Positions 4,213-43,480 of a stretch of 64,000 bases of DNA are shown here, in pieces (the stretch's first letter is position 1; the number at the start of each line of letters is the position of its first letter). The position numbers were made by a program, and so were the translations under genes. Under the pieces are notes generated by a model, which was not told the DNA's origin, searched no databases, and saw only the letters and a list, made by a program, of their open reading frames with translations. Origin of the DNA: Sycon ciliatum (taxonomy: Eukaryota; Porifera; Calcarea; Leucosolenida; Sycettidae); contig NC_088651.1 of assembly GCF_964019385.1 (NCBI RefSeq), forward strand, positions 6,083,696 to 6,147,695, in the 5' to 3' direction.

Positions 4213-7200
4213 TTTGAAATAGGGCCAGATAAAGCGAATTTTTGCAGTTTCCAGTAGTGGTCATGGTCGATATAGTCTGCAGAAAGCTCATGGCTGTGTT
4301 TTATATGTTTGTTGCTGCCAGTAGCTTTGCAGTCTGCTCCACCGTAACCGCTGCACTCCTGAAGAATGTGATAGTGATCATCCTTAACCACACACATCTC
4401 CCAGCAGGTTTTTCCAGTCTGGTCGATCGGGTTCATCGAGCTCTTCTCACACACTCTGAACTCCGTGTTGGGAGCTTTGATCTCGCCATGTAGGACATAA
4501 TGGCCGTCGCTCTCAGCATGCTGGACCTTCTTGATGCACTTCTCATGACATTGGGGGCATTTTTCAGGACAAAGTTGCCCTACGCAATCCATGCACAGAT
4601 GCAGTCCACTGTGGTCTTGTATCAAGCCGCAGGTCTGTGGCCTGTTCCTGACTGTTCCATGGCTTCCTGATTCGCATTTTCCATCGCATTTTGACGCACA
4701 ATGAGAGAACCGGTGTCCATCCCTTACTTTTTGCTGTTGACGATCAGGCAGGGTCTTGTGAAGGACATCCAACGTGCAAGTAGTTGAGTGACCGGCGTGG
4801 CACCGTTCTCCACACTTTGAAAAGCCATCACTTGTCGCTGGCTGCTCAAATCCTGCCGCTTGCTCCCAAAAATACCGGTGCGTGCAGAAGTGCAGCTCTT
4901 TCTTATGCAGCTGCTCTGATTCAATATGATACCCGTCACCACTGCAATCTGCTTGTCTTGCTTCCGATGTGCATGCCAAGATGTGAAGATGACCCCAACC
5001 TGAGTTCTGACAAACGTTTTCGCATGAATGTGCAAAATCTAGAAGTATGGGCAATGTTTGTTGCGCGGTGGCAAAGGTCTGTAGCTTCTGTCTGCCGTCC
5101 ATTCGGATCTGGCCATGTGCTGCTCTGTGTAAAGTTGTGGCGTCGTGTGGTGGGAGCTCGCACTGAGCACCACAGAATGGACAAGGTGTAGAACAGACAT
5201 GGCTATCCCCACATTTATGCTTTTCATGCCCCTCGTGAAGCACGTGATCATGAGCACGAGTGCAGGTTTTTTTACAGTCTGCAGCAGAGCACAGTGCAAC
5301 GCAATCGTGCAAATCACACCGATGATCCTCATGGGCAGTGCCATCCCTGCGGTCTAGTATCACGTCACACTCCCCAGTGCAGAGGGGTTTACCGGCAGTG
5401 GTGGTTTTTGATTGCCGATTGACCTCACAGCGTTCTTTGCACCTATGGGCTGTTTCCGCGCAGAGGCACGGGCCAGCATGATGCTCACGCCGGTCATCAC
5501 AATCCTTGCCGCAGTTCCGCGATACCTCCTTATACACGCAATGTCCTGAGCACGGATGAGAGCACTTGAACATGTGTCCAGTAGTACTCTGTGGTAGTAG
5601 ACCAGGGTTAGCTCCTGTCACCAGGGGACCAGCGTGAAGTTGTCTTCCTTCACAAAACACAGCATCGCCACCATGCTCCTCATGCTGGCATCGGGCATGG
5701 CAATGGTCGAATTCCGCAGTCTCATCTTCAGAGTATGGGTCCACAAAACCAATAGCTTTCCAGAACTGGCTGTGGGTGACTCGCTCGGTGAAGGTAACGT
5801 CGAGGCTCTCTGTTGCTGATTTATCCACTCTGACTTTGCAGTGGTGGTGCTCTCGTTTCAGAGAGGAGCACACGGTGCTGCAGGTGATCACTGATGGTGG
5901 ACTGTCAGGTGTTTGCTGAGCTATAGGTGGCACCATGGATTCATCCTTTGTGTCCACAACTCTCCAAGGAGAAAGCGCATGCTCCTGTATCTCTGCTGGC
6001 CGAAGAGACCGGAATGTTCCATGTGTTGTGCTGTGCAATTCACCGTCAGCATGAACCACCTTATCGCAGCACTCTCCGCACGTTGGACAAAAGGCATTGC
6101 AGGTATGTTGCAATTGGGAAGCATCATCATGATGTGCATGCTCTCCACCGTGTTCCGCTTGGCCAGTTGGAATTATGCGTTTGCAGGGCAGCCTCAATGC
6201 TGGCAATGTTCCATCCTTCACCAAAGCTATTTTTTGATCTGAATCTAGCTTACTGAAGAAGGGCAGGGTGCAGTTGCCTTCGCTGGTGTTGCACTTGATA
6301 TCTTTGTTACCAGTACGCTTCGATTCAGAGCAGATATGAGTTGCACCACAGTCATGAACAGTGGATCCAGTAGGATGGTGGAAATGATCTTTAGCTTCAC
6401 AGTCAGCATCGCAGTGATCGCATTTAGCAGTGCACTTTCCAATGCCACAGTTGCATTTCTGCTTCTTATCATGACCCATTTTCAATTCACATTTGTTGCT
6501 GCAGTCGGTTCCCCTGCATGTTTGGTCACATTTGTGCTCCTTCTCGCAGTCGTGGCCCCTTGAATGCTTGAGTGGCCGCATGCAGTGTTCCACACATGGA
6601 CCGTATTGATTGGCCTGTCCACAAGGATCATTACATAGATGATTGTCGCATGGAAAGTGATGACCATTGTCAGCAAAGCCAGGCAACTCAGGTTTGCCAG
6701 ATTGTGGAACTGTCTGATGATACAGAAGCTGTGTGCAATACACTTTATCTTCCCCGTGCTCTTGATCTCTTGGGCAGGGTGCGGGACACTTGTCAAAACC
6801 ATTTGCTGGGTCTACACTGGGGTCGGCAAAGCTGTGGACATCCCAGAATAGGGCATGGGTCACTTTGCACTTTATGCCCACCCGCCTGTAGCTTTCTTTG
6901 ATTTTGCCTTTGTTATAATGCGCTGCTACCAGGTCGTAGTCTGGGACATGACTGTGTGAGCGACTTTCTTCGAGGCTACCACAGACAGTATGGCAGGTTG
7001 TATCATCTGGCAGTTGTGAAGGAGTAGAGCCATTTCCATTGCGGAGACTAGCCCGAGCACTGGACAGCACAGCACCGTGCTGTGATACTAGATGCTGATC
7101 ATGCGTTGTAGATCCCGCTGTTTCACAGTGGAAGCCACACAATGGACATGTTTTGTCACATCCGTGCGCCTGCTGACAGCTGTGTTTCACACCAGGATGT

Positions 7201-10200
7201 GTGGTTTTTCCAGGTGGCACTGGTATGTTGCAGAAAAGCTTGAATGCATTGCCAGCAATCTTCTCAGCATTGGGATTCTCGCTGATGAAGCTTTCTTTCT
7301 CTACTTCTGGGACAACTTTGCATGGCCCAGGCTCGTTGCATGCTACCTTGCACTTGTGGCTCTTCCCGCAGTGGTGTTGCAGAGGGCTGGAGTCTGAGAC
7401 TTTATGACTGTCATCCATAGAGCATTGCTTTGCGCAGTCCTCATCTTGGCATTGCTTGGGACAGGTGTGTGCTGATTTGCACTTGCAAGGCTGCGCACTC
7501 TTGTCATGGCCGTCCAGTAGAGTGCAGGTGCCTTCACACCGTTGTCCATCTTGAAACAGTTCACACTTGTCACCGCAGACGTGCTCTTCGCATTCGAACC
7601 GATGGCCTTGTAACTGTCCATGCCGCTCTTCAGCAGTGAAACCTCGTTCTGGCTCGGCCTCCGGGTTGTAGAGTTGATGATGAATTTCACCAAGGCACTG
7701 CCTGTTTTCAATGCCGTCGTGGCCAGGCAGTGTGCACACTACTGGGCAGGCGTTGAATAGGCGCGACTCCCCTTCAGGATATGGATCCAATAATGACAGG
7801 TTGTCCCAGAAGGTCCTATGAGACACTTGTCTTGCCTTGGTACGCGAGATGGAGGTGCTGCTGGCAGCATCCACATCGTAGATGAGATGAGAATGAGATG
7901 GCCCAGCAATCTTACATAGCTTGTCACAGGTGATTGCAGCATCCGGCAGTTGCACTTCTCTTCCATCCTTGCCCAGTAAGGCGATCTTGGCAAGGACCTC
8001 TGGCTTGATGCTACCGTGAGTCACGGAGCAGGCAGTGCCAGTGTGGTCGTATGGACGTGAACAGCAGTGTCCACACATGCTGCAGGACTTATTACAGTGG
8101 TGGACAACACCACAGTCGTGGGACTTGTCATGCTTTTGAAGACGGGGTGGTATGGGAATCTTGCAGAATGAGTTCCTGAAGCCGTTGGGATATGCGGTTG
8201 CGGTGACGTTCAGAGGCTGTTCGTCACCACCCGGTGAGAGAATAACACAGACTCCTAGTGCCTCACAGGGCTGGTTGCAAGTGTGTTGCTGCTTACAGTG
8301 GTGAAATACCGACGATCGGTCGGCAGTACCGGTAGTTGGGTGTAGGTGGTTCACGTCGTAGGCACAGTATGGAGGATCACTGCTGTGCGGCAAGATACAC
8401 GGCTTTCCGCAAAGACCATACTCCTTCTGCTGCTCTGGAGAAGCTGGGTCTTTGAACTTCATATCATGCCAGAATTTTGCATGAGAGCTGATGCTCTTCT
8501 TAAAATTCATGTAAGCACTACCGATGTGTAAGTGGCCTCGTCCTCCTTTCTCGCACATATCTTGGCATGTTACACCTCCTTCAATGTGAACCTCGTCGTC
8601 AAGACCGACCGAGAGCTTCACGGCTGTCACGATTGTCCCGTGCTGGACCTGATGAAGAGAACCGCTCTTGTGGTGTCCAGCGTGTAGTTCACAGTGACGT
8701 TTGCACAGTGGGCATTGCTCCTTGCAGGTATGAGATTCGGCGGAACACTCATGTTTCCCTGCGTGCATTTTCTTTCCGGCTGGTAACGGCTTCACACACT
8801 TCAGGTGATATCCGGTGGTGTTGCTTAAACCAGAGACAAGTGCCCGGCTATCCTCTGGTGCTTTCCCGTGGATAGTTGTGACATGGCACACACCATCCAT
8901 GTCACAGTACTTGGCACACGAGTGCCGCTGATTACAATGGTGTAGCCCTTTGTTCTTTGTGGAGTGAACATGGTCAGGTGCGTTGCAATCCGCCGTGCAA
9001 TTACCAATTTCACACCTGTTCTCACATCCAGTAGCATCACATTTATGGTCCGCATGCTCGTAGTAGTCATCTTGGGTACACAACACCTTGCAGCCAGGAG
9101 CTTCACATTCCACGCGGCATTGGTGGTGCTCTTTGCGACACCTGCACCGGGACTCGTGATCGTGGCGGAAGAACCGACAGGCCACGTCCCTCGCCCTTTT
9201 CTCGCTCTGATTTTCGTCGCGGGAGCAGCGGAAGCATGCCTCTGCACACTTGTGCTTGGTGGAGCAGGCAAACCAGTGGCCGCACAGCTCCCGCCCATTC
9301 TCGTCAACTCCATAGATTTGCAGTCCGGTGTACATCAGAGATGTGGCGGCGGTCGCGTTGTCTAGCTCCGGTTTATCGCTCAGCTCGTGGAATAGTTTCC
9401 CTTGGCAGTAGACGTTGGCCTTAGGTCCGTGTCGTTCCTTTGCATTGCACTTGACCGGACAGCCATCCAGGAAATCACGGTCTTCCGGACACGGACAGTC
9501 AAACCGAAACGACTCCCAGAATGCGGAATGTCTCTGTGACTTCTCCCCCAGCCTGCAGTGGGCATGGCCACGCCCTGCTTCCTTGCACAACTGCCCGCAA
9601 GTTCGCTCGCCAGAGACTTCGACGTTACCGCTGACACCGTTGCGAACCACACAAGAGTCATTCCGGTACGGGCCATGTTCATCGAGGCGGTGATTGCCTT
9701 TGTGATTGATATCTCGTGTGCAGTAGCGATGGCAGCCCGGACACTGGACAGTGCAGGTGTGCGTGTTGCGACAGGAGTGCTTCTCCTCGTGTTCTATCTC
9801 TCCGATGGGTTTCTTGATGTCGCACACCAAACGATACCCATTTCCATCACTGGATCGCCGCTTGTGTTTCTCAGGATCCACCGTAGTAGGATCGGATGCA
9901 AGCATGCAGATGCCATCCTCCTCGCAAAGCTCCCGGCACTCGTGACGAATGCCGCAGTGATGCGGTATTGGCTTATCTTCACCACCGTGCAAGTGATCGA
10001 TTGGCTGACCGCTTTTGGAGCAGTTCGCACCACAGTCACATTTCATGCAGCACCTATCGATTCCACACCAGTGCAGCTCATGATCATGTTGATCTTCAGA
10101 GTTATGCTCCTCGACGCGCCGTACACAAGGCTCTCCACAAAGACCGGACTCCAAAGTAGCTGGGCACGGGATGCCACAGACGTGCTTTTCAGCAGTCTGA

Positions 10201-13200
10201 CACGAGCACACACCGTGGTGACCCACAGGCTTGGAACACTGTGAACGCTCCGTGCCGCGCATGCATTTCTCCAGTTTCTCGGGTAGAGTGCAGAGTCCGT
10301 TACACATATGATCCGGCTCTCTGCTGCACGGGAAATGGTGGCCTATGTATACGTTGTGCTCGTTGCCGCGGCTTTGTTTTCGCTCGACGCCGTCGATCTC
10401 CTCCCTCACTGCCTTTCCTGTGTAACCTTTGTCGTCTGGCTTGTGTTTCTCATCAAACGCTTCATGCCACAAAGAGCCTGTGCAGTAGGGTGCACTGGTC
10501 GCAGGATGTCTTGGGCATTGCATAGGGCAACGGTCAAAGTCGGCACTGCCCGCATTCGGATCAACGATATTCAGCCTCTTCCAGAAGAATGTGTGATTCA
10601 CAACCTTGTGATTGTCCCCGTCTTGTTCCTGGCGTGGAAAGAATGGCCTATGGCCAGAGGCAGAGGTGTCAAATGCGCTGGAACGTTTGGCCAGCAATGA
10701 CACAATATCCTTGGACAAGATATGTTCGTGACCCCGCATGTAGTCCTTGCCAGGGCAGAGCTGATCGCATCTTGGCGGTGTATCATGGGACACCAACTCA
10801 TGCGTTCGGCCATTACGCACCCTGGCAAAGCGACTGTTCCGGATCTGTCCGTGCTTCATATCGTGCGGACCCTCGTGGTCCCAGCCGAGACGACACACCA
10901 TGCTGCACAGTGGGCAGATCTCCGTACACGTGTGATCTTTCTGTTCCTTGCCACACTGGTGATTGCCGCTATGCGTCAGGGTCATGGTGTCCAGTGTTGA
11001 CCCGCAGAACATCTTATAGCCGTTCACACCGATTCGCTGCTCCTCGTCTCTGCAGATGTTGGGGTTTAACTCTGACTCCGAGTTGTTGGCTATAGCACAC
11101 ACACCTTCAGCTTGACATACGTCTGGACACTTGTGATCTGTGGCACCACACGTGTGTAGGTCATGGCCTTGCCCCTTGTCGATATCGTGCAAGCAGTATT
11201 TCTCGCACCGTGCTCGAGAAGTCGGTCGAAGTTGGCACTGCTGCGCACACGTGTGCCTTTCAGCGGAGCATTTGTGTTCGGCTTGGTCATCGCCAATATG
11301 TTCATCGTCCCTGCTGGATTCTTCGTGCAGAGCATCCTTGTAGCATATTGAGCTTTCCACCTGCGTGCGATCACCATGCTTGTGAACCCAGGCATCCATG
11401 TAGTCGCACGGCTCCTCACACTTGTGCTGTGGAGGCACGTCACCTCCTTCTTGCCAGCACTGGCAACGACGGCTCTTGTGACCTGCTCCCGCCATACACT
11501 GGCCGGGCTCGCCTTCCCTGGTCTTCTTCTTCCGACAATACGTGCAAGGTCTGCCGCAGTAATGGTTGCCTTGCTTGCCGTGATCAAACAGACAGTCATG
11601 CTTGTCGCGATGACCACGCGGCTGCAGGCAAAGCAGGTGACAGGGCTTGTAGGAGCATGGTTGGTCGCAAGGCTCCCAGATCGACTCGAAGAAGCTGAAA
11701 CAGGATTTGGTTTCTGCTTCAAGGTCGAGGGTTCCCCTCAGTCCCTGCCTGTGAGTGTGGGACGGTGCCTTCACGGCTCTTTGCCGGCGCTTGCAGAGGA
11801 TGTCCAGCGCTGTCTTGGTCTGAGTGTGGAGAGCGGCCGGGCCTCGAGACCACCAGTCTTCTTCAGACTTCAGTACCGCTCTTGCGACATCAACACGCAG
11901 AGCATTGATCATGGCGCGGGCAGCATCGCTCAGCAGCTTTTCGACACCGTCGAAGCACTTGTCTATATCGGAACTATCCATGTCCACTTTGAAATCGAGT
12001 GGTAAGCCGGCATCCATGGACCACTTATACTTCTGCGGTCGATGGAACGGCTCCACGACCTCGCCGTCGATTTTTAACTCTTGGGTGCCGCTGTTGCAAG
12101 GTTTGCCATTCCACTCTCCACTTCTTAGCGCGGTGAGCAAGAGCTCGAAAAACTCTATGGTTTCACGGTGATGGACTTGGCTGAGTTTCAGCGATGTGAA
12201 GCTAGTACAAGCAGTGGCAGCAGCGCCCAGCATCAAACACAGCGAGTCGTGGAAACCGGCTGACTTGAAGCACGGCGTCGAAAGCTCGCCAAGGTGAGCC
12301 GTTATACGTTCCGCCGCAAACTGTCGAACGCATGCCTCGCGCTGCTCTGCCTCAAGCTGAACTTCGTCATAATGCCGCTCATCGTAATCGCCGAAGAACT
12401 CGCTGAGAGTATCTTGATCCTCTGGGTCAAGGTGACAGAGTTTCTGGGATCCATCTTCGTCGTTGCTTTGCCGAGACGTGGACAGTACGAGGAGACGGCC
12501 CGTAAACAGGCCGCTGTCAATTTTCTGCGGGTCTAGCTTGGACTCCTTCTCCTTCGGATCAACCCAGAGCGATTTCATATGCTCTTTCATCTGCTGGATA
12601 ACCGCCACAAGCCGTTTGACTGCACCCACTGGATTGTCAGAGCAGACGATGAAGACATTGCTTAGTGCTACTGCTGGTAAGAGTAGCGGCATGGCTGCGT
12701 CCTGGAAAGGTTCCTTGGATTGAGAGAGCAGATGCAAGCCTTCGAAGCAGAAGAAGTTGTGCACCCTCATGTCGAGAAGGCGCGTGGAGAGAAGCAGTCG
12801 AGCATGTTTCCGCTGCTCCACCTCCGGTCTCCTGCCGCGTCCCGGTTTAATGGCAGCAACCTTGGCATCACCCGGTATGCTAGCGGCCATCATTCCGCCA
12901 GAGCACATGTTGGCAATAGTCATTGCACTGAGTTCGTCGTCGGTCAATACGGTTGTAACATACGTCGGGTCACTGCGGTGACGTAGCTCGCTCGCCAGTG
13001 GACTCACTTCGATCAGATTGTGCACAACGTCCACAAACTTAGCTCGCTGCTCGACTGGAACAGGATTGGATGCAAAGCACTGACGACAGATTGCAGATGA
13101 GGCGTCACCATGGCTGCTTGCATCCTGGGGTAGTGGGTCATCAGAGTCGAGTGAGACGGTTGAGAGGACGGAGAGGCTGGGACCGAGGGCCATGTTGGTG

Positions 13201-14194
13201 AACAGCTGGTCAAACTGGACCATTGGCTGGCGCGGCAGCCTGCGAAGGTCAACTCTGTCCATCGGCTGGATGATAGGACCTTCGATGATCGGTACGTTCC
13301 CCATGTCGGTCGTGCCAGGAGTTGCAGTGGCAGTGGCAGTGCGTGGGGTGTTTGATTGTCTGCCGTTGGTGATGTTGAAGCAACTCCTGATGGCTTCTTC
13401 CTTGCGTGCGTCATTTTCACTTGGAAACTGTACCATCTGGTAGGGCTGCGTGACAGCTATTGCAAGCCGCCGTGTTTGCCAGGCAAGCGATCCTTTGCAG
13501 CCGTACCACGCATACTTGAATCGAAGAAGCTTGAGAGGGTTGTTCGGGTCGAGTTGCTTGGGATGCCGCTTCAGGTTGCCGAACTTCTCCTTGAACACGA
13601 TCCTGGTGCCATTCCTGGAACGGCGCATTCCCGCTGCATCTCGATCCCATGGCCAGTCGTGATCAGTGAATGCCAGTAGGACAGAGTCGGACGCATCCAT
13701 CGTAAGGTTGAGAAGTTGACAAGCCGTGCTGATGGGCTCATGTTCGTGCAGGTTAAGGACAAGGTACGCTTCACCCGTCGTGTCTGTGACGTTGTCCACA
13801 AAGCACAGGACGCTGGACCCTGGCTCCACGTCGACCAGGTGTGCCAGAGATTTGCCGTCGGCAATCTGGTGGCCATGCAGGATGCCTTCGATGCATTCTC
13901 GGTTCCCGGCCATGACCAGCACCTTCAGGTTTGTGTACTTCATTGCGGATGCAGTGCCGTCGTCGTCTGCTGGCTGCTGCCCGTCGACTGCCTGCCCTCC
14001 TAGCTTGCTGGTACACTTGCCGACCTTCTCCAGGGCAATGCGCAAGTACCTGATGGCATCCCGGTCCACCAGTATCGGTGGCGTTTCCACGATGGCAGGC
14101 CCCGGCCTAGTGAAGTCCAGCTTGATGGCATGCTCCTCTTTGCCCAGTGCCGTCGAGTACCACAGTCGCTTGGCGGTTTTCTGGCTCTTGCCAA
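4213..14194 (-). CDS. giant 10-kb exon: Cys/His-rich repeat region of a CARD-containing protein
   Basis: An open frame of 9,982 bases runs without a stop. The 5' edge is a good acceptor (TTGTTCCCTCTGCAG, exon starts TT GGC AAG), which enters in phase 1 and matches the phase-1 exit of the CARD-like exon at 18821. The first 850 or so residues show no domain I recognise. From about 11.68 kb the protein becomes densely Cys/His-rich, with repeating pairs such as HxC-x3-C, CP-x-C and DH-x-GxH. Eight copies of H-x-x-[FY]-W, mostly followed by F-x-DP and CP-x3-C, lie near 10580, 9520, 8470, 7810, 6850, 5765, 4870 and 4250, spaced about 620-1090 bases apart. The pattern implies serial zinc binding. 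The apparent stop TAA lies inside AAA|GTAAGTAC, a near-perfect donor, and the last repeat is cut about 13 residues after its motif. The exon therefore probably splices onward in phase 2. Function is unknown. Confidence 0.85.
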
Positions 14195-14299
14195 CTGCAG
14201 AGGGAACAAGCAACGCACGCAAAGACAGACACAAAGTATAAATATACAAGCCGGAATCCACTGAGTGTCGGATGCAGTGCACATACCGCACACTGTCAG

Positions 14300-15486
14300 C
14301 TCAGTTCTTAGATATATGCAAAAGTGCCATTCATGCTCGACAACGGGATGGGTAGAGGGGACAGGCTTGGTTGGAGATAAAAAATAATACATTACGGTCA
14401 TCAAAATATGAGCCGCGCCAAGCTAAAAAGTGGCTTCGTGTTTTGCCAACAAATCGAGAAAATCACCAAAATGTCACAGTTGGCAAATTTTACTCGAGTG
14501 CGATCGCGAAAATATTCACTTTCAAGTTTGCAAGCGGATGAAGAGAGAAGCCTTTTATGTTTGAGCAACACTTCTTCAGTGTTCCCTCTGTCATCGTTGT
14601 GGGGATTCCTCAGCGCTGCCAGAGATCGTAATGGAGCTTCTGAGAGAGAATGTGGAGGTGAGCCGGATAACATTCTGTATCCGTGTGCGCCATAACCTAC
14701 TTGACGAGGAAGAGTCGCTCATTCATAGTGGCTGTGCTTCTTATCGTGGTCACGACTAGAGCGGCGAGTGTAGCTATGGGGAGACGTCTACAAGCCTTCT
14801 GACTATCATTCTGACAAGCAGCCTGGTGAGTTGGCTCTTCCTGCGATCATTTTTTTGTTTGTTTCACTTTGTTTCGGCTACCTTCAATTTAGTGTTCATG
14901 ACATGACGTACTGGATTCCAAAATTTCCTCGTTTCAAGGAAATAGTGCCACACAACGAAGCGATGCATTGACTCTACCTGCTAGCATATTGTCCCGTGGC
15001 GCCTTCTACCAGTATCCTTGGCAGGGAAGGAGAATGACATGGACTAGGACGGACAAAGAACCAGTGCCACGTGTTAGCGATGTGCGGTCTACTGGACCTA
15101 TATGTAGGTGCGAGAGCACTACACCAATGGACCTAGATCTCTGGCACAGCACCACGAGCTACATGAAAGGATTAATTCATCCTGGCATAGGTGATTGGAG
15201 AGAGTATGACGGACCGTCTTGGTAAGATGCGACGTTCCCCAACGCAGCGAAACATATAGTCACAACATCATGATGAAGGATATGAAAATTCGTATTGCGT
15301 GATAAAATGGCATGAGTCATGATGAAAATTTAATGTAGATCTGTTATTTCTTCTTTCTTGGATCTTCTAATTAGAACACAAGTGCTCATTCTTCCTGTAT
15401 TGCTTGCACACCTGCTAAGCTTTGTCTCTACTTGGTGTCCCATGTTTTCTTGGAGTTTGGGAAGGTCTTGGAATCCTTAAATGTCA
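14300..15486. other. intron sequence, no exon seen
   Basis: Lies between the giant exon and the next exon of the same gene at 18821. Short open frames occur on both strands, but none has matching splice sites or protein-like composition that I can support. Confidence 0.5.
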
Positions 15487-16630: not shown

Positions 16631-16656
16631 CACAGTTAAATATAATTTGGGCCCGA

Positions 16657-18820: not shown

Positions 18821-19091
18821 CTCCTTCGAAATGCTGCTGTAGCAGGTCCTTAGCAATGTCCTTGACCTTTCCAGGTTGTTTGTACAGAATATACAGGAAG
18901 TCCTTCTGCTGCGTTTCCGACTTGTGCTGCATCAAGTCCAGCAGGTAGCCAGCCTGATCGACTGGGTCCTTTCCTCTCTCTTCAATGTCGGTTTTCTGAC
19001 TGAAGCTGACCACGTCTTTGGTTCTGAGGTCGGTGAGGAAATCTCGTACCAGCATGCATTGACTCAAGTCGTGCAGGTTCGGGTAGATGAT
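18821..19091 (-). CDS. CARD-like exon 4 of the CARD/Cys-His gene
   Basis: The exon has acceptor TTTGCCCAG|ATC ATC TAC and donor GGAG|GTACGTAC, is 271 bases long, and enters in phase 0 and leaves in phase 1. It encodes a helical domain of about 90 residues. Its pattern (VRDFLTDLR, then YLLDLM, then FLYILYKQ) resembles helices of the caspase recruitment domain, a death-fold that binds other CARDs. Its phase-1 end joins exactly to the phase-1 start of the giant exon at 14194. I infer CARD from pattern only. DED or DEATH are alternatives within the same fold. Confidence 0.75.
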
Positions 19092-22779: not shown

Positions 22780-23059
22780 CGGGAAGGCTGAATTCGACGT
22801 TCGCCAGCTGACGGAGTTTGTTTGCCTTGGACATCAAGTCCAGTTCATTTAGGGCATCCAAGAACACCGCGAAGCTTTCCTCTCCTTTGCGCTCATAGAC
22901 TCTGAGCAGCGCTTTGAACCTAAGAAAGTCGGTGTGTTGAGACTCAATCTCGTTGCGTTCCTCGATGGAGATTTCAAGGTCAAAGCGCATTTTTTGCAGT
23001 AGGCGCTTCCACTGGGATGCCATTAGCTTATTGAGATCTTCTTCTTCTTTTCTGACGAC
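22780..23059 (-). CDS. CARD-like exon 3 of the CARD/Cys-His gene
   Basis: Acceptor GTTACTGTTAACAG|GTC GTC AGA; donor CTTCCCG|GTGAGTG. The exon is 280 bases, phase 0 to phase 1, the same phases as the other three CARD-like exons. The product is an all-helical region of about 93 residues with heptad-like hydrophobic spacing (WKRLLQKM, FLRFKALLRVYERKG, FAVFLDALNELD). The segment around ERKG followed by F-x-x-FLDAL closely follows the end of a CARD. Its starting residues V-V-R-K parallel V-A-R-K in the exon at 30351. Confidence 0.78.
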
Positions 23060-29901: not shown

Positions 29902-29983
<82 letters not shown>

Positions 29984-30077: not shown

Positions 30078-30351
30078 CGGAGGTATGCAGCAAGTGCAGT
30101 ATCTGCCGATGCATCCGCTGCACAACGTCAACATCCTTGCTCTCGCTCCACAGATGCTGGAAGAACGGCACGAACGTTTCATTGCCACCTTCCTGCAGCT
30201 GAAGTAGTAAGTCACGGTTTAAGTCGTCTCCCTGCTTCGTTTCCAGTTCACGTATCGTGCGCTCTTCCAAGAGATGCTGTGAGCTGACAAGGTTGAGCAA
30301 GTCGGCAGCATTGATAAACTCACGCAGCTCTCGCATGTGCTTTCTGGCAAC
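30078..30351 (-). CDS. CARD-like exon 2 of the CARD/Cys-His gene
   Basis: Acceptor GTGTATTGCTGCAG|GTT GCC AGA AAG; donor ACCTCCG|GTGAGTA. It is 274 bases, phase 0 to 1. It encodes about 91 residues with six predicted amphipathic segments: an opening RELREFINAADLLNLV, a middle RDLLLQLQ and a closing ETFVPFFQHLW. The G-x-x-TFVPFF-x-x-LW closing segment is shared with CARD-like exon 1 (35556-35823), so the two are clear paralogous modules. CARD is the best match by pattern. Confidence 0.8.
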
Positions 30352-32051: not shown

Positions 32052-32114
32052 CTCATTCCAAAGGTCATCGTAGCGTTCCAGAAAAACTGGGTCTTCCAGA
32101 ACCTTGTTGACATC
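32052..32114 (-). CDS. short exon (63 bases) preceding CARD-like exon 2
   Basis: Acceptor GTCGGTTCTACTAG|GAT GTC AAC; donor AATGAG|GTGAGATA. 21 codons, phase 0 to phase 0, joining in frame to the exon at 30351. The sequence DVNKVLEDPVFLERYDDLWNE is similar to the exon ending at 43424 (DVMLLLGDTGFLRRYPNLWRE). Each of the two precedes a CARD-like exon, which is good evidence that both are real. Entry in phase 0 does not match the phase-1 exit of CARD-like exon 1, so a small phase-1-to-0 exon between 35556 and 32114 is unaccounted for. Confidence 0.65.

Positions 32115-32382: not shown

Positions 32383-32387
<5 letters not shown>

Positions 32388-32452
<65 letters not shown>
32388..32452. repeat. 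CT microsatellite
   Basis: Uninterrupted (CT)n of about 60 bases. Confidence 0.97.
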
Positions 32453-32457
<5 letters not shown>

Positions 32458-32837
32458 ATGTAGTTGTTGTAGTTTGTCTTTGTCTCCGTCTCATCGTCAA
32501 TAATAAATGTTTCCCCCTACTCGTTCCCGTTGTCTGTTGTGTTGTGTCTGGGATGATGGAGTCACCAGTTGAAACTCAACAGTACCATTATTCAAACTTG
32601 GACAAAATTATTCACTGACTAAAGTTGACGCTTTGACTGCAGTTCACAGTTATCCTGGAGAGTGTCAGCACTACATGTAAGCACAGGGATTTGGCACTCG
32701 ACACAAGCTACATGACCATACAACCTTAAAAAAGGCAATTTTAAAATTGCTTCCGTAGCACAACGGCAATCAATTTGCAGCTATGTGGTGTTGAGTGGCT
32801 GGTGCATGTCTTGCCAGGGTGTCACGTCTATTTTTGT

Positions 32838-33135
32838 AGGGGTGACAACGAGCAGTAGGGTACCCGTGCTACCCGTAATTTGATCGGGTAGTAGGGTAGT
32901 AATTTGCTTAGTTGGAGTACGGTGTTGAACCGGATCGGATAGTTGGAGTACGGTTTTTTTGCAACGGTGCATGTAACTTGAATAGCATGGCGATGTGCTG
33001 CTGACCTGCTGTACACTTTCTATATAGCGCAAGTGCACACTCCCAGTACAAGCTGTGTCAACAAATATCCGATAGGGTGCCCGAGCTACCCGGATAAAAA
33101 TACCCGGACTCGTTACCCGGCCAAACCCCTACCCG
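32838..33135. mobile_element. hAT-like MITE (GTAGGGGTGACAACG end)
   Basis: Left end GTAGGGGTGACAACGAG; right end inverse CGGGTAGGGGTTTGG. It is filled with GGGTACCCG and GGGTAG phrases like the 2103 element. Confidence 0.55.
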
Positions 33136-33196
33136 TTGCAGCCTGAATGTTTGGAAACTGTCTCAGTATCTTGAGTACAGCTCGTGCTGTTTTTAG

Positions 33197-33729
33197 TAGG
33201 GCTGAAACAATTATATCGATAACTCGCATATCGATCGTTAAGAGTGCAATCGATAATCGTTAGTGTTCAAAACGAGTGCTATCGATTTTTTATGCATGCA
33301 TATTAGTGACAGTATTCTAGCCCTTACACTCCATCCGATAGTGGATACGAGTGCAATCATGTACTTTCAAGTGCAGTAAAATTGATTTGTGGCTTTGAAA
33401 GAGTTCGGGAGAGAAGACTTTGCCTTTTCGCTTCATTTGTGGGAGAAGTCGGAAATGAGAGCAGTTGCCAGAGGGTGATGACAAGATTCTTCACTCTAGA
33501 AACAACATGAAATTTCTCTACGTGAGTAGTTCATGTTGATAAAACCAGCCAGATATCTACAGATGTCAACAGTGCGGTGTCACAAATTTCTAACGCAGCA
33601 AAGGAATCATAGTCTTTCTTCATAAACTGGTGTTCGATAGAGCCGACAAGAATCGATAAAACCAATATATCGATCGTTAATGATATTGGTTGATCGTTAG
33701 GAGTTATTGAATGATCGTTTCAGCCCTAG
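33197..33729. mobile_element. hAT-like MITE with 8-base target duplication
   Basis: Terminal inverted repeats TAGGGCTGAAAC / GTTTCAGCCCTA, flanked on both sides by GTTTTTAG. An 8-base duplication is the hallmark of hAT transposition. The interior repeats ATATCGATCGTTA in both orientations. No transposase remains. Confidence 0.85.
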
Positions 33730-34960
33730 TTTTTAGCCACACTTCATATTTTATCCATCGCCATCATGATAATTATTAGGAATTAATGCCTGTTGTGTTT
33801 GCGATATAAATGTAATAAAACTTCACACAAATCAAACAATAAATCAAAGCAAACAACTAACTTACAATGGCAAAATAGTACCACTGCTCTCCACCATGGC
33901 TGTGCACATAAAGAAACAGCAAAACAAAACTGAAGGTTCACTGTGTAGGGGTGAAGAGTGTACCGATATTTCTTGTTCGAGCACTCCAGAAGAAACTGAG
34001 CGAGTATTCGAGCAATCTCAGTCGAGTATTCATTTTTCCCATAATATCACACATTCTTGTTGAGTTGTGTATAGCTATGGCAGTTCTGCACAATGCACAC
34101 ATTCTTGTTGAGTTCTGTATAGCTATGGCAGTTCTGCACGATGCACACTACACTTGTGCTTGATGTATGGTAGAGAAGACGGTTTCAAATAGGAACGGCT
34201 AGACAGCAAAATTGTGTAGACCCAAACCGATCATCAGCGTAGATTGTTCACTCGAAATATGTTTGTGGAAGGAAGCTGGCATGTTGAAGTTTGCTCTGAG
34301 GCCAGAGGCGATCGAACTGAGCCACTCCTTTGTCTTGGCACGTTGCCTCCAAGTTGCCCGATTTTTCATTTCAAATTTTGGTGTTAGAGAGGTGGCTCCA
34401 AACCGGAACAGTTTCGGAGTGCCCGTCAAGTTCACCCTGAGTTCTGAAATCAGGTAATTGCTATCGCTCCATGCGTCCAGTACAGAGAAACAATAAGCCC
34501 TGTGTGTGCTTCCATTAGTTTTCACTGGTATAGGGTTCTTTATTGGCGAGAGGCGAGCCGCTGTTTACCTGCGACAAGAATTTGATTTTTCGAAAGACGT
34601 TTAACTAAAAAAAAAACTCAAGTCGCAGTGCGAAGACACACGTCAAAAATTCACCTCCTTGGTATGGCGCTTCTGGTCATTGCCAGAGCCTTGAACTTTT
34701 GGCTCAGAGTATAACACATCGTAGCCTCACTGTGACATGTGCTTTCTATTCAAAATACCAAGAGAGAAGTCGGGGTGGAGACAAAAAACCTAATATCGAT
34801 GAAAGTAAAGTGAGGGGTGCCCCCTATTCAGATCGAGTGCCCTCCTGCTCTTGCCACCAGGTAACAACTCACCTGATGGGATTCTGTTCCTCCACTGCAT
34901 CCAGCAGGTAATGCACCACCGTACGTGTACATGTAGGCACATAGGCACATGCAAAAGCAC
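33730..34960. other. intron sequence with one uncertain exon candidate
   Basis: Contains a two-copy direct repeat at about 34050-34146 (CACACATTCTTGTTGAGTT). At 34873 a minus-strand donor CCCATCAG|GTGAGTTG follows a protein-like frame (HYLLDAVEEQNPI). Its phases do not resolve the missing link between CARD-like exons 1 and 2, so it is not called. Confidence 0.35.
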
Positions 34961-34965
34961 GGCCA

Positions 34966-35078
34966 CACACACACACACACACATACACATACATACACAC
35001 ATACACGGCCACACACACATACACACATACACGGCATGCATGTGCATGCGTGCATGTACAAACACACACACACACGGA
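34966..35078. repeat. CA microsatellite, interrupted
   Basis: (CA)n with ACATAC and ACGGCC interruptions. Confidence 0.9.
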
Positions 35079-35555
35079 TGTACATTATGCACAAAAACAC
35101 AACATAAAGTGATACACAATGATACAATAATTATTAGTCACTCCAATAGTACACTGATTTCAATCTCTTCAATTGGTACACCAAGAAAATTGTTCACTGG
35201 AAATCCCCAATTTCCTTTCAGCAAACATTCCAAGATTCCCCTGGGACCATTGCAGAATACATAAAGTATATTACCTGATTTTCTGTATTTTAAATTCCCT
35301 TGTTGAACTCTCTATGCATCTAACACAGTGATGAAGAGTTGGAAGTGACCGTGACCCAGGTACTGCCAATGGAAGGGGGTTTATGACCTGACGAACAACA
35401 CAGGTACGGCCAATGGAGGGGGGGGGGGTATACCAGTCTATTCTAGAGGCATACAAACATTTGTTTGCCTTCAGATGCACTCCAAGCATTTCGGTCTCCT
35501 TGTTTCACAACTGACACAAAGCAAGCAAATCCAGGCGGAAGCAATCGCGGCTTAC

Positions 35556-35823
35556 CACGCTTTCTGTACAACTCTATGAGCTGAGATTTGATCTCCTGCA
35601 CAACTGGGAGAGTTCGCTGGTGCTCCCAGAGTTTCTCAAAGAAGGGTACAAAGGTAGCGTTGTGGCCTCTCTCCAATATCTCTATCAGCGTCTCACTCTT
35701 GCCGAAGTCTGTGCCCTCTGCAAGGCTTTGAAGATCTCTTGGAGACAGCCATTCCTGAAAATAGTTGATCATGTCTTTCACCCTTAGGTTTTCAGCAAGC
35801 TTGGGCTTGTACAGAACATCAGC
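35556..35823 (-). CDS. CARD-like exon 1 of the CARD/Cys-His gene
   Basis: Acceptor GTGTGCATCCTTTAG|GCT GAT GTT; donor AAGCGTG|GTAAGCC. It is 268 bases, phase 0 to 1, about 89 residues. It shows the same module as the exon at 30078-30351: an opening helix (VKDMINYFQEWL), a LIEILERG segment, then ATFVPFFEKLWE and a final helix (IKSQLIELYRKRG). This is the first of at least four such modules. It joins in phase to the exon ending at 43424 across a 7.6-kb intron that holds the 32-bp satellite. Confidence 0.8.
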
Positions 35824-36431
35824 CTAAAGGATGCACACAAGATATAGAACATGGAATTAGAACACAGTTTAACTGAAGTACCCCGCTAGACTCAAATTCA
35901 AAAACAAGCACGTAGGAAACACACACACCCAAGGTGATCTCAGGGTCTGTGTGTGTGTGTGGTAGTCTGCGTGCCTATAAAGAGGACGCTAAAGAGAGGG
36001 AAGTGAAGAAAATAAGGCAAAGGATGGGGCAGCAAGAGTGGATGTCTTTGCGATGGAGGGGTGCAACATCATTCCAGTAGCGTTTTGCTGTTCTAGAGAG
36101 GTAGACACAGAACATTCTTCTTTCTTTTTTTTGACAAACTTACTTCCATACTCCAAAAGACCTTGAAGAAAATGATAGGAAATGTTTGGAAGCAGTTCAA
36201 GAAAAGATGAGAGTAAGATGCTGGTGACAGGGTTGTTAGGATTTAGAGGAGATGTGACTTGAACATAACCACACACCACATGCATGCAATACCGCCGTGG
36301 ATATCCGCCCACGTGGCTTTTCCAGTTAGGCCGATGTAAGCCAGTGTCACCCTCCCGCTTAATCAATTCAGCACGTACACACAGTTCGACCTGCGGTTTG
36401 GTTGAACCTGCATTGCCACTCCCCCCATAAG
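35824..36431. other. intron sequence, no firm exon
   Basis: A (GT)n of about 15 bases sits near 35947. A minus-strand acceptor and donor pair around GTCTTTTGGAGTATGGAA (36141-36158) would give an 18-base micro-exon in phase 0. It is too short to call. Confidence 0.4.
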
Positions 36432-36439
36432 TACAGTAG

Positions 36440-39400
36440 AACTTCCCTTATCCAGGCAGGTTAGGACCGAGCACTGCCCTTATCCAGGCAGGTTGGGACC
36501 GAGAACTGCCCTTATCCAGGCAGGTTTGGACCAAACACTGCCCTTATCCAGGCAGGTTGGGACCGAGATCTGCCCTTATCCAGGCAGGTTGGGACCGAGA
36601 ACTGCCCTTATCCAGGCAGGTTGGGACCGAGAACTGCCCTTATCCAGGCAGGTTTGGACCAAACACTGCCCTTATCCAGGCAGGTTGGGACCGAGATCTG
36701 CCCTTATCCAGGCAGGTTGGGACCGAGAACTGCCCTTATCCAGGCAGGTTGGGACCGAGAACTGCCCTTATCCAGGCAGGTTTGGACCAAACACTGCCCT
36801 TATCCAGGCAGGTTGGGACCGAGATCTGCCCTTATCCAGGCAGGTTGGGACCGAGAACTGCCCTTATCCAGGCAGGTTTGGACCAAACACTGCCCTTATC
36901 CAGGCAGGTTTGGACCGAGAACTGCCCTTATCCAGGCAGGTTTGGACTGAGAACTACCCTTATCCAGGCAGGTTGGGACAGAGAACTGCCCTTATCCAGG
37001 CAGGTTTGGACTGAGAACTGCCCTTATCCAGGCAGGTTTGGACCGAGAACTGCCCTTATCCAGGCAGGTTTGGACCAAACACTGCCCTTATCCAGGCAGG
37101 TTTGGACCGAGAACTGCCCTTATCCAGGCAGGTTGGGACAGAGAACTGCCCTTATCCAGGCAGGTTTGGACCGAGAACTGCCCTTATCCAGGCAGGTTTG
37201 GACCGAGAACTGCCCTTATCCAGGCAGGTTTGGACCGAGAACTGCCCTTATCCAGGCAGGTTTGGACTGAGAACTGCCCTTATCCAGGCAGGTTTGGACC
37301 GAGAACTGCCCTTATCCAGGCAGGTTTGGACTGAGAACTGCCCTTATCCAGGCAGGTTTGGACCGAGAACTGCCCTTATCCAGGCAGGTTGGGACAGAGA
37401 ACTGCCCTTATCCAGGCAGGTTTGGACCGAGAACTGCCCTTATCCAGGCAGGTTTGGACCGAGAACTGCCCTTATCCAGGCAGGTTTGGACCGAGAACTG
37501 CCCTTATCCAGGCAGGTTTGGACTGAGAACTGCCCTTATCCAGGCAGGTTTGGACCGAGAACTGCCCTTATCCAGGCAGGTTTGGACCGAGAACTGCCCT
37601 TATCCAGGCAGGTTGGGACCGAGAACTGCCCTTATCCAGGCAGGTTTGGACCAAACACTGCCCTTATCCAGGCAGGTTGGGACCGAGATCTGCCCTTATC
37701 CAGGCAGGTTGGGACCGAGAACTGCCCTTATCCAGGCAGGTTTGGACCAAACACTGCCCTTATCCAGGCAGGTTTGGACCGAGAACTGCCCTTATCCAGG
37801 CAGGTTTGGACTGAGAACTACCCTTATCCAGGCAGGTTGGGACAGAGAACTGCCCTTATCCAGGCAGGTTTGGACTGAGAACTGCCCTTATCCAGGCAGG
37901 TTTGGACCGAGAACTGCCCTTATCCAGGCAGGTTTGGACTGAGAACTGCCCTTATCCAGGCAGGTTTGGACCGAGAACTGCCCTTATCCAGGCAGGTTGG
38001 GACAGAGAACTGCCCTTATCCAGGCAGGTTTGGACCGAGAACTGCCCTTATCCAGGCAGGTTTGGACCGAGAACTGCCCTTATCCAGGCAGGTTTGGACC
38101 GAGAACTGCCCTTATCCAGGCAGGTTTGGACTGAGAACTGCCCTTATCCAGGCAGGTTTGGACCGAGAACTGCCCTTATCCAGGCAGGTTTGGACTGAGA
38201 ACTGCCCTTATCCAGGCAGGTTTGGACCGAGAACTGCCCTTATCCAGGCAGGTTGGGACAGAGAACTGCCCTTATCCAGGCAGGTTTGGACCGAGAACTG
38301 CCCTTATCCAGGCAGGTTTGGACCGAGAACTGCCCTTATCCAGGCAGGTTTGGACCGAGAACTGCCCTTATCCAGGCAGGTTTGGACTGAGAACTGCCCT
38401 TATCCAGGCAGGTTTGGACCGAGAACTGCCCTTATCCAGGCAGGTTTGGACTGAGAACTGCCCTTATCCAGGCAGGTTTGGACCGAGAACTGCCCTTATC
38501 CAGGCAGGTTGGGACAGAGAACTGCCCTTATCCAGGCAGGTTTGGACCGAGAACTGCCCTTATCCAGGCAGGTTTGGACCGAGAACTGCCCTTATCCAGG
38601 CAGGTTTGGACCGAGAACTGCCCTTATCCAGGCAGGTTTGGACTGAGAACTGCCCTTATCCAGGCAGGTTTGGACTGAGAACTGCCCTTATCCAGGCAGG
38701 TTTGGACCAAACACTGCCCTTATCCAGGCAGGTTGGGACCGAGATCTGCCCTTATCCAGGCAGGTTGGGACCGAGAACTGCCCTTATCCAGGCAGGTTGG
38801 GACCGAGAACTGCCCTTATCCAGGCAGGTTTGGACCAAACACTGCCCTTATCCAGGCAGGTTGGGACCGAGATCTGCCCTTATCCAGGCAGGTTGGGACC
38901 GAGAACTGCCCTTATCCAGGCAGGTTTGGACCAAACACTGCCCTTATCCAGGCAGGTTTGGACCGAGAACTGCCCTTATCCAGGCAGGTTTGGACTGAGA
39001 ACTACCCTTATCCAGGCAGGTTGGGACAGAGAACTGCCCTTATCCAGGCAGGTTTGGACTGAGAACTGCCCTTATCCAGGCAGGTTTGGACCGAGAACTG
39101 CCCTTATCCAGGCAGGTTTGGACTGAGAACTGCCCTTATCCAGGCAGGTTTGGACCGAGAACTGCCCTTATCCAGGCAGGTTGGGACAGAGAACTGCCCT
39201 TATCCAGGCAGGTTTGGACCGAGAACTGCCCTTATCCAGGCAGGTTTGGACCGAGAACTGCCCTTATCCAGGCAGGTTTGGACCGAGAACTGCCCTTATC
39301 CAGGCAGGTTTGGACTGAGAACTGCCCTTATCCAGGCAGGTTTGGACCGAGAACTGCCCTTATCCAGGCAGGTTTGGACTGAGAACTGCCCTTATCCAGG

Positions 39401-42400
39401 CAGGTTTGGACCGAGAACTGCCCTTATCCAGGCAGGTTGGGACAGAGAACTGCCCTTATCCAGGCAGGTTTGGACCGAGAACTGCCCTTATCCAGGCAGG
39501 TTTGGACCGAGAACTGCCCTTATCCAGGCAGGTTTGGACCGAGAACTGCCCTTATCCAGGCAGGTTTGGACTGAGAACTGCCCTTATCCAGGCAGGTTTG
39601 GACCGAGAACTGCCCTTATCCAGGCAGGTTTGGACCGAGAACTGCCCTTATCCAGGCAGGTTGGGACCGAGAACTGCCCTTATCCAGGCAGGTTTGGACC
39701 AAACACTGCCCTTATCCAGGCAGGTTGGGACCGAGATCTGCCCTTATCCAGGCAGGTTGGGACCGAGAACTGCCCTTATCCAGGCAGGTTTGGACCAAAC
39801 ACTGCCCTTATCCAGGCAGGTTTGGACCGAGAACTGCCCTTATCCAGGCAGGTTTGGACTGAGAACTACCCTTATCCAGGCAGGTTGGGACAGAGAACTG
39901 CCCTTATCCAGGCAGGTTTGGACTGAGAACTGCCCTTATCCAGGCAGGTTTGGACCGAGAACTGCCCTTATCCAGGCAGGTTTGGACTGAGAACTGCCCT
40001 TATCCAGGCAGGTTTGGACCGAGAACTGCCCTTATCCAGGCAGGTTGGGACAGAGAACTGCCCTTATCCAGGCAGGTTTGGACCGAGAACTGCCCTTATC
40101 CAGGCAGGTTTGGACCGAGAACTGCCCTTATCCAGGCAGGTTTGGACCGAGAACTGCCCTTATCCAGGCAGGTTTGGACTGAGAACTGCCCTTATCCAGG
40201 CAGGTTTGGACCGAGAACTGCCCTTATCCAGGCAGGTTTGGACTGAGAACTGCCCTTATCCAGGCAGGTTTGGACCGAGAACTGCCCTTATCCAGGCAGG
40301 TTGGGACAGAGAACTGCCCTTATCCAGGCAGGTTTGGACCGAGAACTGCCCTTATCCAGGCAGGTTTGGACCGAGAACTGCCCTTATCCAGGCAGGTTTG
40401 GACCGAGAACTGCCCTTATCCAGGCAGGTTTGGACTGAGAACTGCCCTTATCCAGGCAGGTTTGGACCGAGAACTGCCCTTATCCAGGCAGGTTTGGACT
40501 GAGAACTGCCCTTATCCAGGCAGGTTTGGACCGAGAACTGCCCTTATCCAGGCAGGTTGGGACAGAGAACTGCCCTTATCCAGGCAGGTTTGGACCGAGA
40601 ACTGCCCTTATCCAGGCAGGTTTGGACCGAGAACTGCCCTTATCCAGGCAGGTTTGGACCGAGAACTGCCCTTATCCAGGCAGGTTTGGACTGAGAACTG
40701 CCCTTATCCAGGCAGGTTTGGACCGAGAACTGCCCTTATCCAGGCAGGTTTGGACTGAGAACTGCCCTTATCCAGGCAGGTTTGGACTGAGAACTGCCCT
40801 TATCCAGGCAGGTTTGGACCGAGAACTGCCCTTATCCAGGCAGGTTTGGACTGAGAACTGCCCTTATCCAGGCAGGTTTGGACCGAGAACTGCCCTTATC
40901 CAGGCAGGTTTGGACCGAGAACTGCCCTTATCCAGGCAGGTTTGGACTGAGAACTGCCCTTATCCAGGCAGGTTTGGACCGAGAACTGCCCTTATCCAGG
41001 CAGGTTTGGACTGAGAACTGCCCTTATCCAGGCAGGTTTGGACTGAGAACTGCCCTTATCCAGGCAGGTTTGGACTGAGAACTGCCCTTATCCAGGCAGG
41101 TTTGGACTGAGAACTGCCCTTATCCAGGCAGGTTTGGACTGAGAATTGCCCTTATCCAGGCAGGTTTGGACTGAGAACTGCCCTTATCCAGGCAGGTTTG
41201 GACTGAGAACTGCCCTTATCCAGGCAGGTTTGGACCGAGAACTGCCCTTATCCAGGCAGGTTTGGACTGAGAACTGCCCTTATCCAGGCAGGTTTGGACT
41301 GAGAACTGCCCTTATCCAGGCAGGTTTGGACTGAGAACTGCCCTTATCCAGGCAGGTTTGGACTGAGAACTGCCCTTATCCAGGCAGGTTTGGACTGAGA
41401 ACTGCCCTTATCCAGGCAGGTTTGGACTGAGAACTGCCCTTATCCAGGCAGGTTTGGACTGAGAACTGCCCTTATCCAGGCAGGTTTGGACCGAGAACTG
41501 CCCTTATCCAGGCAGGTTTGGACTGAGAACTGCCCTTATCCAGGCAGGTTTGGACTGAGAACTGCCCTTATCCAGGCAGGTTTGGACCGAGAACTGCCCT
41601 TATCCAGGCAGGTTTGGACCGAGAACTGCCCTTATCCAGGCAGGTTTGGACTGAGAACTGCCCTTATCCAGGCAGGTTTGGACCGAGAACTGCCCTTATC
41701 CAGGCAGGTTTGGACCGAGAACTGCCCTTATCCAGGCAGGTTTGGACTGAGAACTGCCCTTATCCAGGCAGGTTTGGACCGAGAACTGCCCTTATCCAGG
41801 CAGGTTTGGACCGAGAACTGCCCTTATCCAGGCAGGTTTGGACCGAGAACTGCCCTTATCCAGGCAGGTTTGGACTGAGAACTGCCCTTATCCAGGCAGG
41901 TTTGGACCGAGAACTGCCCTTATCCAGGCAGGTTTGGACTGAGAACTGCCCTTATCCAGGCAGGTTTGGACTGAGAACTGCCCTTATCCAGGCAGGTTTG
42001 GACCGAGAACTGCCCTTATCCAGGCAGGTTTGGACTGAGAACTGCCCTTATCCAGGCAGGTTTGGACCGAGAACTGCCCTTATCCAGGCAGGTTTGGACC
42101 GAGAACTGCCCTTATCCAGGCAGGTTTGGACTGAGAACTGCCCTTATCCAGGCAGGTTTGGACCGAGAACTGCCCTTATCCAGGCAGGTTTGGACCGAGA
42201 ACTGCCCTTATCCAGGCAGGTTTGGACCGAGAACTGCCCTTATCCAGGCAGGTTTGGACTGAGAACTGCCCTTATCCAGGCAGGTTTGGACCGAGAACTG
42301 CCCTTATCCAGGCAGGTTGGGACCGAGAACTGCCCTTATCCAGGCAGGTTTGGACCGAGAACTGCCCTTATCCAGGCAGGTTTGGACTGAGAACTGCCCT

Positions 42401-42505
42401 TATCCAGGCAGGTTTGGACTGAGAACTGCCCTTATCCAGGCAGGTTTGGACAGAGAATTGCCCTTATCCAGGCAGGTTTGGACCGAGAACTGCCCTTATC
42501 CAGGA
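36440..42505. repeat. 32-bp satellite array, about 190 copies
   Basis: The unit is TTGGACCGAGAACTGCCCTT plus ATCCAGGCAGGT. Variants (GGGACCGAGATCTG, GGACCAAACACTG, GGACTGAGAACTG, GGGACAGAGAACTG) recur in order. Blocks reappear at 864 bases (27 units) and at 2,048 bases (64 units), for example 37038/39086 and 37902/39950, so the array has higher-order structure. Because 32 is not a multiple of three, long open frames cycle through all phases and are meaningless. The CTTATCCAGG in each unit equals part of the host element's terminal repeat. Confidence 0.97.
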
Positions 42506-42753
42506 ATTGCCCGTAACTCAGACCATACAGTACGTACTACTGTCAGACAACACCGAATTAATATTCGGCACATATTTATTTTTAAATAAACATCGAGGCG
42601 GCAATAGTTTAGAATTGCTTCGTATCCACTCGTTTTTGATATAATAAAGCCTTTGTGAAACGTCGGTTCAGCTCGTTCTGTTCATCGCAATTCTAAAACA
42701 TGTTTACTTCAAAGGATTAGTCAGGGAAGTGGACTGCCTCAAAAGAGAAAAAA

Positions 42754-42852
42754 TGCCAGACCCACTCGGACTCAAACCCGGGACCTTGCTTGTCATGAGC
42801 AATGCTCTAACCATCTGAGGTATGGGGCATCTGAGCTACGGGGCTAGGCCGG
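42754..42852 (-). mobile_element. tRNA-like SINE head or tRNA pseudogene
   Basis: Read on minus: GCCCCGTAGCTCAGATG, then CCCATACCTCAGATGGTTAG, then GCATTGCTCATGACAAGC and GGTCCCGGGTTTGAGTCC (B box). The D-arm region is partly duplicated, which rules out a working tRNA. It differs from the other SINE family in this window. Confidence 0.6.
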
Positions 42853-43423
42853 ATATAGAAGGTGCTGACACGTTTTTCACTCCAAAGGCGGCTCACAACA
42901 TGTGCCACACATACTAATGGCACTTGGGTCTTTTCCCCTCCCCCAGCATATTTATTTTCGGCTATTTTCGGCCTTGGCATTTTTCGCCAAAAACTTGTTG
43001 CGGCTGAAATTTTCCTTTGCAGGGTTCAGTGTGACAGTGCGTACAGGTAGCGGCAGTACAGGCCGAAATTGTAATGCGGCCGAAATGTGTTTGAGCCCTG
43101 GGCGGCAGAAATTTAAACATACCAAAAATTTGCAGACCAACGCTACATGTAAGTAGAATCGCTTTACACCAGTCAATAGTTCTTGAGGCACGTTTTCACT
43201 GGAAAACCATTTTTTGTGACTCGAGAGCGGTCAGAAAGGTGTCCGGTAGATAGATGTGCCCGGATTAGAGGGGCATCCGGATAAGAGGAGTTTTCCTGTA
43301 CCTCGAGTACTTTCAGTCAGTCGGTTCAGACGTGATCTGTTTTTTTCTTTCTTTATCTTAAGTCACATGACATCATTCATGTCCGAAAACAAAATTTGTA
43401 CACAGTCATCTAATGTTACTCAC

Positions 43424-43480
43424 TTCTCTCCATAGGTTTGGGTAGCGGCGAAGAAAGCCAGTGTCTCCAAGCAGCAGCAT
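43424..43480 (-). CDS. first recognisable coding exon of the CARD/Cys-His gene (5' end uncertain)
   Basis: Donor AGAGAA|GTGAGTAAC, exiting in phase 0 and matching the acceptor of CARD-like exon 1. In-frame ATG at 43480 gives MLLLGDTGFLRRYPNLWRE. The frame stays open upstream to about 43765 through a CAG/CTG-rich tract that would read as poly-Ala, so translation could begin further up or an upstream exon may feed in. Similarity to the 32052-32114 exon supports coding. Confidence 0.55.

Follow-up and report, generated by a model that had tools for sequence, protein, structure and literature searches.

The question raised by this locus is how four exons for the same kind of domain, set in a row and all of the same phase, are to be combined with the single very large exon that follows them. 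The locus lies in a 64,000-nucleotide stretch of the genome of the sponge Sycon ciliatum (NC_088651.1, positions 6,083,696 to 6,147,695), referred to here as the window (G000:C10:6083696-6147695), and the genome searched for related sequences was the 538-Mb assembly of 313 contigs. An earlier note on the same DNA had proposed one protein in which four CARD-like exons are all joined to a giant Cys/His-rich repeat region. In the reading that we prefer, and to which we would give an even chance of being right, a single minus-strand gene would instead encode a giant signalling scaffold, in which one of four alternative CARDs is mounted on a GTPase-dead, zinc-repeat body of the VLIG family. Throughout, W denotes the window gene, and P2, P3, P4, P6, C9, C4 and C53 denote loci with family copies elsewhere in the genome.

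Exons of the window gene and its paralogs

On the minus strand, where all of the exons described here lie, the CARD exons follow one another in the order A (35556..35823, 268 nucleotides), B (30078..30351, 274 nucleotides), D (22780..23059, 280 nucleotides) and C (18821..19091, 271 nucleotides). All four lengths are 1 mod 3, and all four exons run from phase 0 to phase 1. The number, order and phases given in the earlier note are borne out by splice sites and frames, as is the junction that it had proposed between exon C and the giant exon: the donor at 18821 (G/GTACGT, the stroke marking the splice) leaves in phase 1 and the acceptor at 14194 (CTGCAG/TT) enters in phase 1. The giant constant exon (4209..14194) is 9,986 nucleotides long and has an open frame from this entry to a stop codon at 4211-4209.

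Two linker exons accompany the CARD exons. E1 (43424..43600) runs from phase 0 to phase 0, and its peptide ends in FLRRYPNLWRE; its best acceptor, with a score of 0.93, lies at 43600 and gives entry in phase 0, and weaker acceptors at 43578 and 43572 would give entry in phase 1. An ATG at 43480 was considered as a start codon and rejected because it is not conserved, the paralog P2 having ACG in its place, and E1 is better read as an internal exon (43600-43424) than as a first exon. The second linker, LB (32052..32114), was missed in the earlier note; it comprises 63 nucleotides, likewise runs from phase 0 to phase 0, and encodes DVNKVLEDPVFLERYDDLWNE, a peptide that resembles the tail of E1 and is identical in W, P2 and P3. 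Its acceptor scores 0.93 in the 63-nucleotide form, and a weaker internal acceptor (0.6) would yield a form of 35 nucleotides.

Parts of the giant sequence were found in at least 13 further places in the genome, P3 and a piece at C10:5944500 being counted as one. P2, at 5.99 Mb on C10 and about 90 kb from W, has a giant exon that is 94.7% identical in DNA, and it retains E1, A, LB, B, D and C in this order, with splice sites and phases as in W and the frame of E1 preserved; exon B is longer by 18 nucleotides, and the lengths of A, D and C are unchanged. The ratio of nonsynonymous to synonymous change (dN/dS) between W and P2 is 0.27 for E1, 0.26 for A, 0.27 for B, 0.20 for D, 0.12 for C and 0.39 for the giant exon, the single-exon values resting on few changes (8 to 23 each), and no stops are present; LB shows one synonymous change and no other. 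The low ratios, together with the shared splice sites and phases, argue for reading all of these exons as kept as coding sequence.

In P3, exons A, LB and B are present, no match to D or C occurs before the giant exon, and the giant frame is broken. The combination of a CARD exon with the giant exon recurs in the diverged paralogs P4 (pieces 40-53% identical; one CARD exon, of the C type) and P6 (contig C1, pieces 27-35% identical; two CARD exons), whose copies of exon C are 42% and 25% identical, respectively, and have the same phases. The in-frame joining of a CARD exon to a giant Cys/His-repeat exon, a further claim of the earlier note, is seen in W and also in P2, P4 and P6. On C9, a giant frame of 5,634 codons (G000:C9:29306775-29317955) has the same Cys/His modules, and some 28 kb upstream of it (near 29346 kb) there are two CARD exons of the same orientation, preceded by frames that end in LWRD and LWRK; 5 kb of this upstream stretch reads N.

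One CARD exon or several

The splice-level set comprises 13 CARD exons (four each from W and P2, one from P4, and two each from P6 and C9), with two P3 CARD exons, one minus-strand match in the P3 region and the CARD loci L001-L008 (frames only) kept apart from it, and all 13 run from phase 0 to phase 1. The acceptor of the giant exon has phase 1 at each of the four loci read (W, P2, P4 and P6). When E1 is taken as leader and joined through any single CARD exon to the giant exon, the frame is open to the giant stop in four of four cases in W, where it spans about 3,440-3,480 residues, and in four of four in P2. Because the CARD exons run from phase 0 to phase 1, joins that contain two of them, or none, meet early stops: in both copies the zero-CARD join and all six CARD pairs end between codons 84 and 201. 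Each of the two CARDs of P6 is open when joined singly, and the pair and the zero-CARD join stop; in P4 the single CARD is open and the zero-CARD join stops. The proposal of one protein with all four CARDs is not supported by the reading frame: in W a stop is met by codon 149 in each of the six pairs and in the chain of four CARDs, and the six pairs stop in P2 also. That a single CARD leaves the frame open, and that none or two close it, suggests alternative rather than additive cassettes, with one CARD exon per protein, unless unseen exons of phase 1 to 0 exist.

Adjacent, related exons of equal phase and similar length, whose double inclusion shifts the frame, are also what is found in mutually exclusive clusters such as those of Dscam, from which W differs in that the unit that varies would be a CARD with a signalling role instead of an Ig domain, and in that its splicing is predicted from genomic sequence. 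Among human mutually exclusive exon clusters, one report gives 377 (60%) with lengths not divisible by three (PMC5740500). A literature search that combined CARD, mutual exclusion and tandem exon duplication returned no paper, and a wider query returned papers on Dscam and NLRP3 among the matches listed.

The rival that survives best, although we regard it as doubtful, is a constitutive protein with several CARDs in tandem, comparable to RIG-I and MDA5 with their paired CARDs, in which the frame would be restored by the internal acceptor of LB or by small unseen exons of phase 1 to 0. It draws support from the linker exons with a repeated motif before A and B, and from the LWRD and LWRK frames before the two CARDs of C9. 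The entry in phase 1 that it needs is offered by the two weaker acceptors of E1 and by the 35-nucleotide form of LB, with which A, LB and B would join in frame; the best acceptors of both linkers, however, give entry in phase 0. This short form, which would serve tandem joining, is a rival possibility, but the upstream acceptor is the stronger one, and the first 28 nucleotides of LB, which would be intronic in the short form, are identical in W, P2 and P3. As to unseen exons, none of phase 1 to 0 emerged from a global alignment. A scan of blastn blocks gave 14 candidates at site scores of 0.6/3 and none at 0.65/4, and in a gap-by-gap scan at 0.6/3, for sites kept in P2, A-LB yielded one candidate, LB-B and D-C two each, and B-D six. 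These gap scans covered the bases aligned with P2, namely 1,588 of 3,441 in A-LB, 2,823 of 7,018 in B-D and 1,391 of 3,688 in D-C, and because less than half of each of these three gaps is aligned, the additive reading keeps an escape; five more candidates lie in the C9 gap. The candidates are nevertheless short, weak-sited or poorly conserved, and to the eye they are unlike one another; none of them convinces.

An improbable alternative is that every linker-CARD unit has a promoter and a first exon of its own, all of these being spliced to the giant exon, after the model of the clustered protocadherins, in which each unit has its own first exon. The first linker frame of C9 does have ATG codons upstream of its donor, but a conserved ATG is absent from E1 and LB, and upstream of E1 the only candidate running from an ATG to a donor is six codons long. 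Least probable of all is a set of separate genes, in which the giant exon would go with CARD C alone, or with no CARD, and A, B and D would form an upstream CARD-only gene: P4 lends it some support, having a C-type CARD only in the 33 kb read upstream (2.9 kb of it masked), but P3 has A and B, and no match to D or C, before its giant exon, every CARD donor read has phase 1 and fits the giant acceptor, and no terminal exon was seen, although no search dedicated to one was run.

CARD profile and giant body

By sequence match at the level of profiles, the identification of the window exons as CARDs stands. A profile made from nine of the 13 exons, the four of P2 being left out, finds CARD11 in the PDB at E 1.7e-7, ICEBERG at 1.9e-5, MDA5 at 1.1e-4 and RAIDD at 2.7e-4, and it also matches RIG-I, CARD9 and APAF1; among its weaker matches, which begin at E 0.02, are designed proteins and others that are not CARDs. 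Compared with Pfam at E up to 1, four of the nine aligned members matched CARD, three CARD_2 and one Death. In pairwise comparison, exons A and B are similar to one another (E about 1e-9 to 1e-8; 1.1e-9 for B against A with phmmer), and what connects C and D with them is the shared CARD profile only. The likeness to CARD proteins such as CARD11, RIG-I/MDA5 and NLRC is one of sequence profile, and W differs from these in having its CARDs on phase 0-to-1 cassettes ahead of a giant exon in whose frame Pfam calls no domain.

The eight long repeats of the earlier note can be recognized in the giant exon as eight H-x2/3-F/Y-W anchors (region 4212..11387), spaced by 205-361 residues, giving seven spaced units and, at the end, a truncated one. 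An alignment of six of the seven spaced units has 18 invariant columns, of which 15 contain Cys or His, and the repeats may be zinc-binding. A looser form of the anchor pattern occurs nine times each in W and P2 (one of them outside the repeats), eight times in P4, nine times in P6 and once in C4. A putative, degenerate G domain of the URGCP/VLIG type is placed at 12603..13016, with approximate borders, from the position of the GTPase in C4 and a full-length profile alignment of low confidence; near 12740 it has a G3-like FCFEGL, which aligns, with low confidence at that point, with the G3 motif LDFEGL of C4. The P-loop GxxxxGK[ST] is absent from W, P2, P4 and P6 and present in the C4 member read, and a vWA motif is absent from the CARD branch. 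Compared with the PDB, the giant frame of W matched nothing.

A search of the genome for URGCP_GTPase (PF25683) gave three matches, all of them in frames of the giant family (two on C4, one on C53), at E 2.1e-6 to 2.3e-5 and below the 55-bit cut-off. In one C4 member, of which 2,988 residues were read, a RING and three B-box stretches exceed the Pfam cut-offs, and URGCP_GTPase and VWA_2 are matched below theirs; this member also has a P-loop (GKQSTGKS), a single Cys/His module and the motif DRSGS, and no CARD was found in the 9 kb read. Between W and the C4 members, the repeats are similar at E 2.1e-11 and 4.0e-11; the flank that follows the G domain matches at E 1.1e-4, and at 5.1e-10 when profiles are compared. 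W and the C4 paralogs share the same Cys/His module and the same flank, and they differ in that W has eight H..FW anchors and C4 has one, and in that the P-loop and DRSGS are found in C4. With this kinship beyond the G core to proteins that do bear a G domain, the giant body is placed in a family in which the C4 paralogs have a GTPase of the URGCP/VLIG type together with RING, B-box and vWA-like domains. It is suggested that, in the CARD branch, a GTPase family became a scaffold without a P-loop as its Cys/His module multiplied.

Vertebrate VLIGs are encoded by a single exon and are induced by interferon. With these very large GTPases of the URGCP/VLIG type (GVIN1/VLIG; PF25683), W has in common a giant single-exon open reading frame, and its kin in the genome match PF25683; it differs from them in having neither a P-loop nor a match to PF25683 itself, and in adding CARDs and about eight Cys/His modules. 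The statement in the earlier note that no named family has this architecture holds in part: the combination of a CARD with a giant Cys/His-repeat region is not described in the titles or abstract starts among the matches listed by a literature search, but the giant part does have a VLIG-type family, with members on C4.

Possible function and neighbouring sequences

In the reading that we prefer, a leader and then a short linker exon would be followed by one of the four alternative CARD exons, and this in turn by a constant body of 3,300 residues, with a decayed URGCP/VLIG-type GTPase region lacking a P-loop and about eight Cys/His modules. The CARD head would assemble with partner CARDs (of NLRs, caspase-like proteins or CARD adaptors), and the body, being without a nucleotide switch, would serve as a zinc-stabilised scaffold, a sensor or a ligand-binding surface; the choice of CARD exon would swap the partner or pathway and leave the body unchanged. 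Exclusive splicing, signalling through the CARD and the location of the protein in the cell are what we infer from the sequence, and an innate immune role may be surmised from the CARDs, from the relation to VLIGs and, weakly, from a divergent NACHT gene nearby. A wider formulation, held tentatively and at somewhat less than an even chance, would see here a receptor-like giant with at least four retained and swappable CARD heads, exclusive by frame, on a constant pseudo-GTPase and zinc-repeat body, an arrangement that would recur in clusters on C10, C1 and C9 and act as a Dscam-like switch of signalling output and not of recognition. If true, this would link two usually separate immune families, the CARD adaptors and the VLIG-type giant GTPases, in an animal that probably branched early, and it would make it testable whether an animal diversifies its immune output by CARD exon choice.

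Besides the linking-exon candidates and the short form of LB, a number of results weigh against the single-CARD scaffold. The search upstream of E1 did not find the true start of the gene, and a visible linker exon precedes A and B only, with none before D or C. At the C9 locus, 18 kb between the CARD exons and the giant frame are unread, and the linkers offer acceptors of phases 0, 1 and 2, which makes their entry phase ambiguous. The CARD assignment of the earlier note, upheld by the nine-exon profile, is not reached by the exons singly: D (E 7.3e-5, 23.1 bits) and C (E 6.9e-4, 20.0 bits) fall below the Pfam cut-off for CARD of 23.9 bits, A (E 0.049, 14.1 bits) falls below that for CARD_2 of 28.2 bits, and B alone has no Pfam match. 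A genome-wide Pfam search gave 82 CARD matches, none of them inside the window. The giant frame of W matched no Pfam family at E up to 1, and hence not PF25683, and a profile of the N-terminal part from four copies had nine matches in the PDB up to E 10, the best at 0.84 and none of note. Finally, the strong profile match between W and C4 falls on the flank that follows the G domain and not on the domain itself, for which the relation is weak.

The divergent neighbour is a long single frame on the plus strand (53155-56100) with a match to NACHT (E 9.9e-10) and a partial match to Death. The earlier note had described it as a NACHT-DEATH-LRR gene, and the first two of these domains are over the Pfam cut-offs, the second as a partial match, but no LRR is called by Pfam in that frame. 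W itself differs from an NLR in that Pfam finds no NACHT in its giant frame.

Elsewhere in the genome, a 1.6-Mb part of contig C1 (G000:C1:11256132-12868730) has 57 of the 82 CARD matches from Pfam, perhaps an expansion of NLR or CARD genes, and a weak CARD-like frame, which the local profile matches at E 7.7e-6, lies on the minus strand, opposite to P3, at G000:C10:5887293-5887754. The intron between E1 and A houses a tandem array of about 6 kb (36170-42504), with a unit of about 32 bases as judged from repeated frames, and this array is present in P3 as well (93.5% over 6,335 bases). At 59659-60138 of the window, on the minus strand, there is a frame with a stretch that we take to be like the B12 domain of methylmalonyl-CoA mutase.

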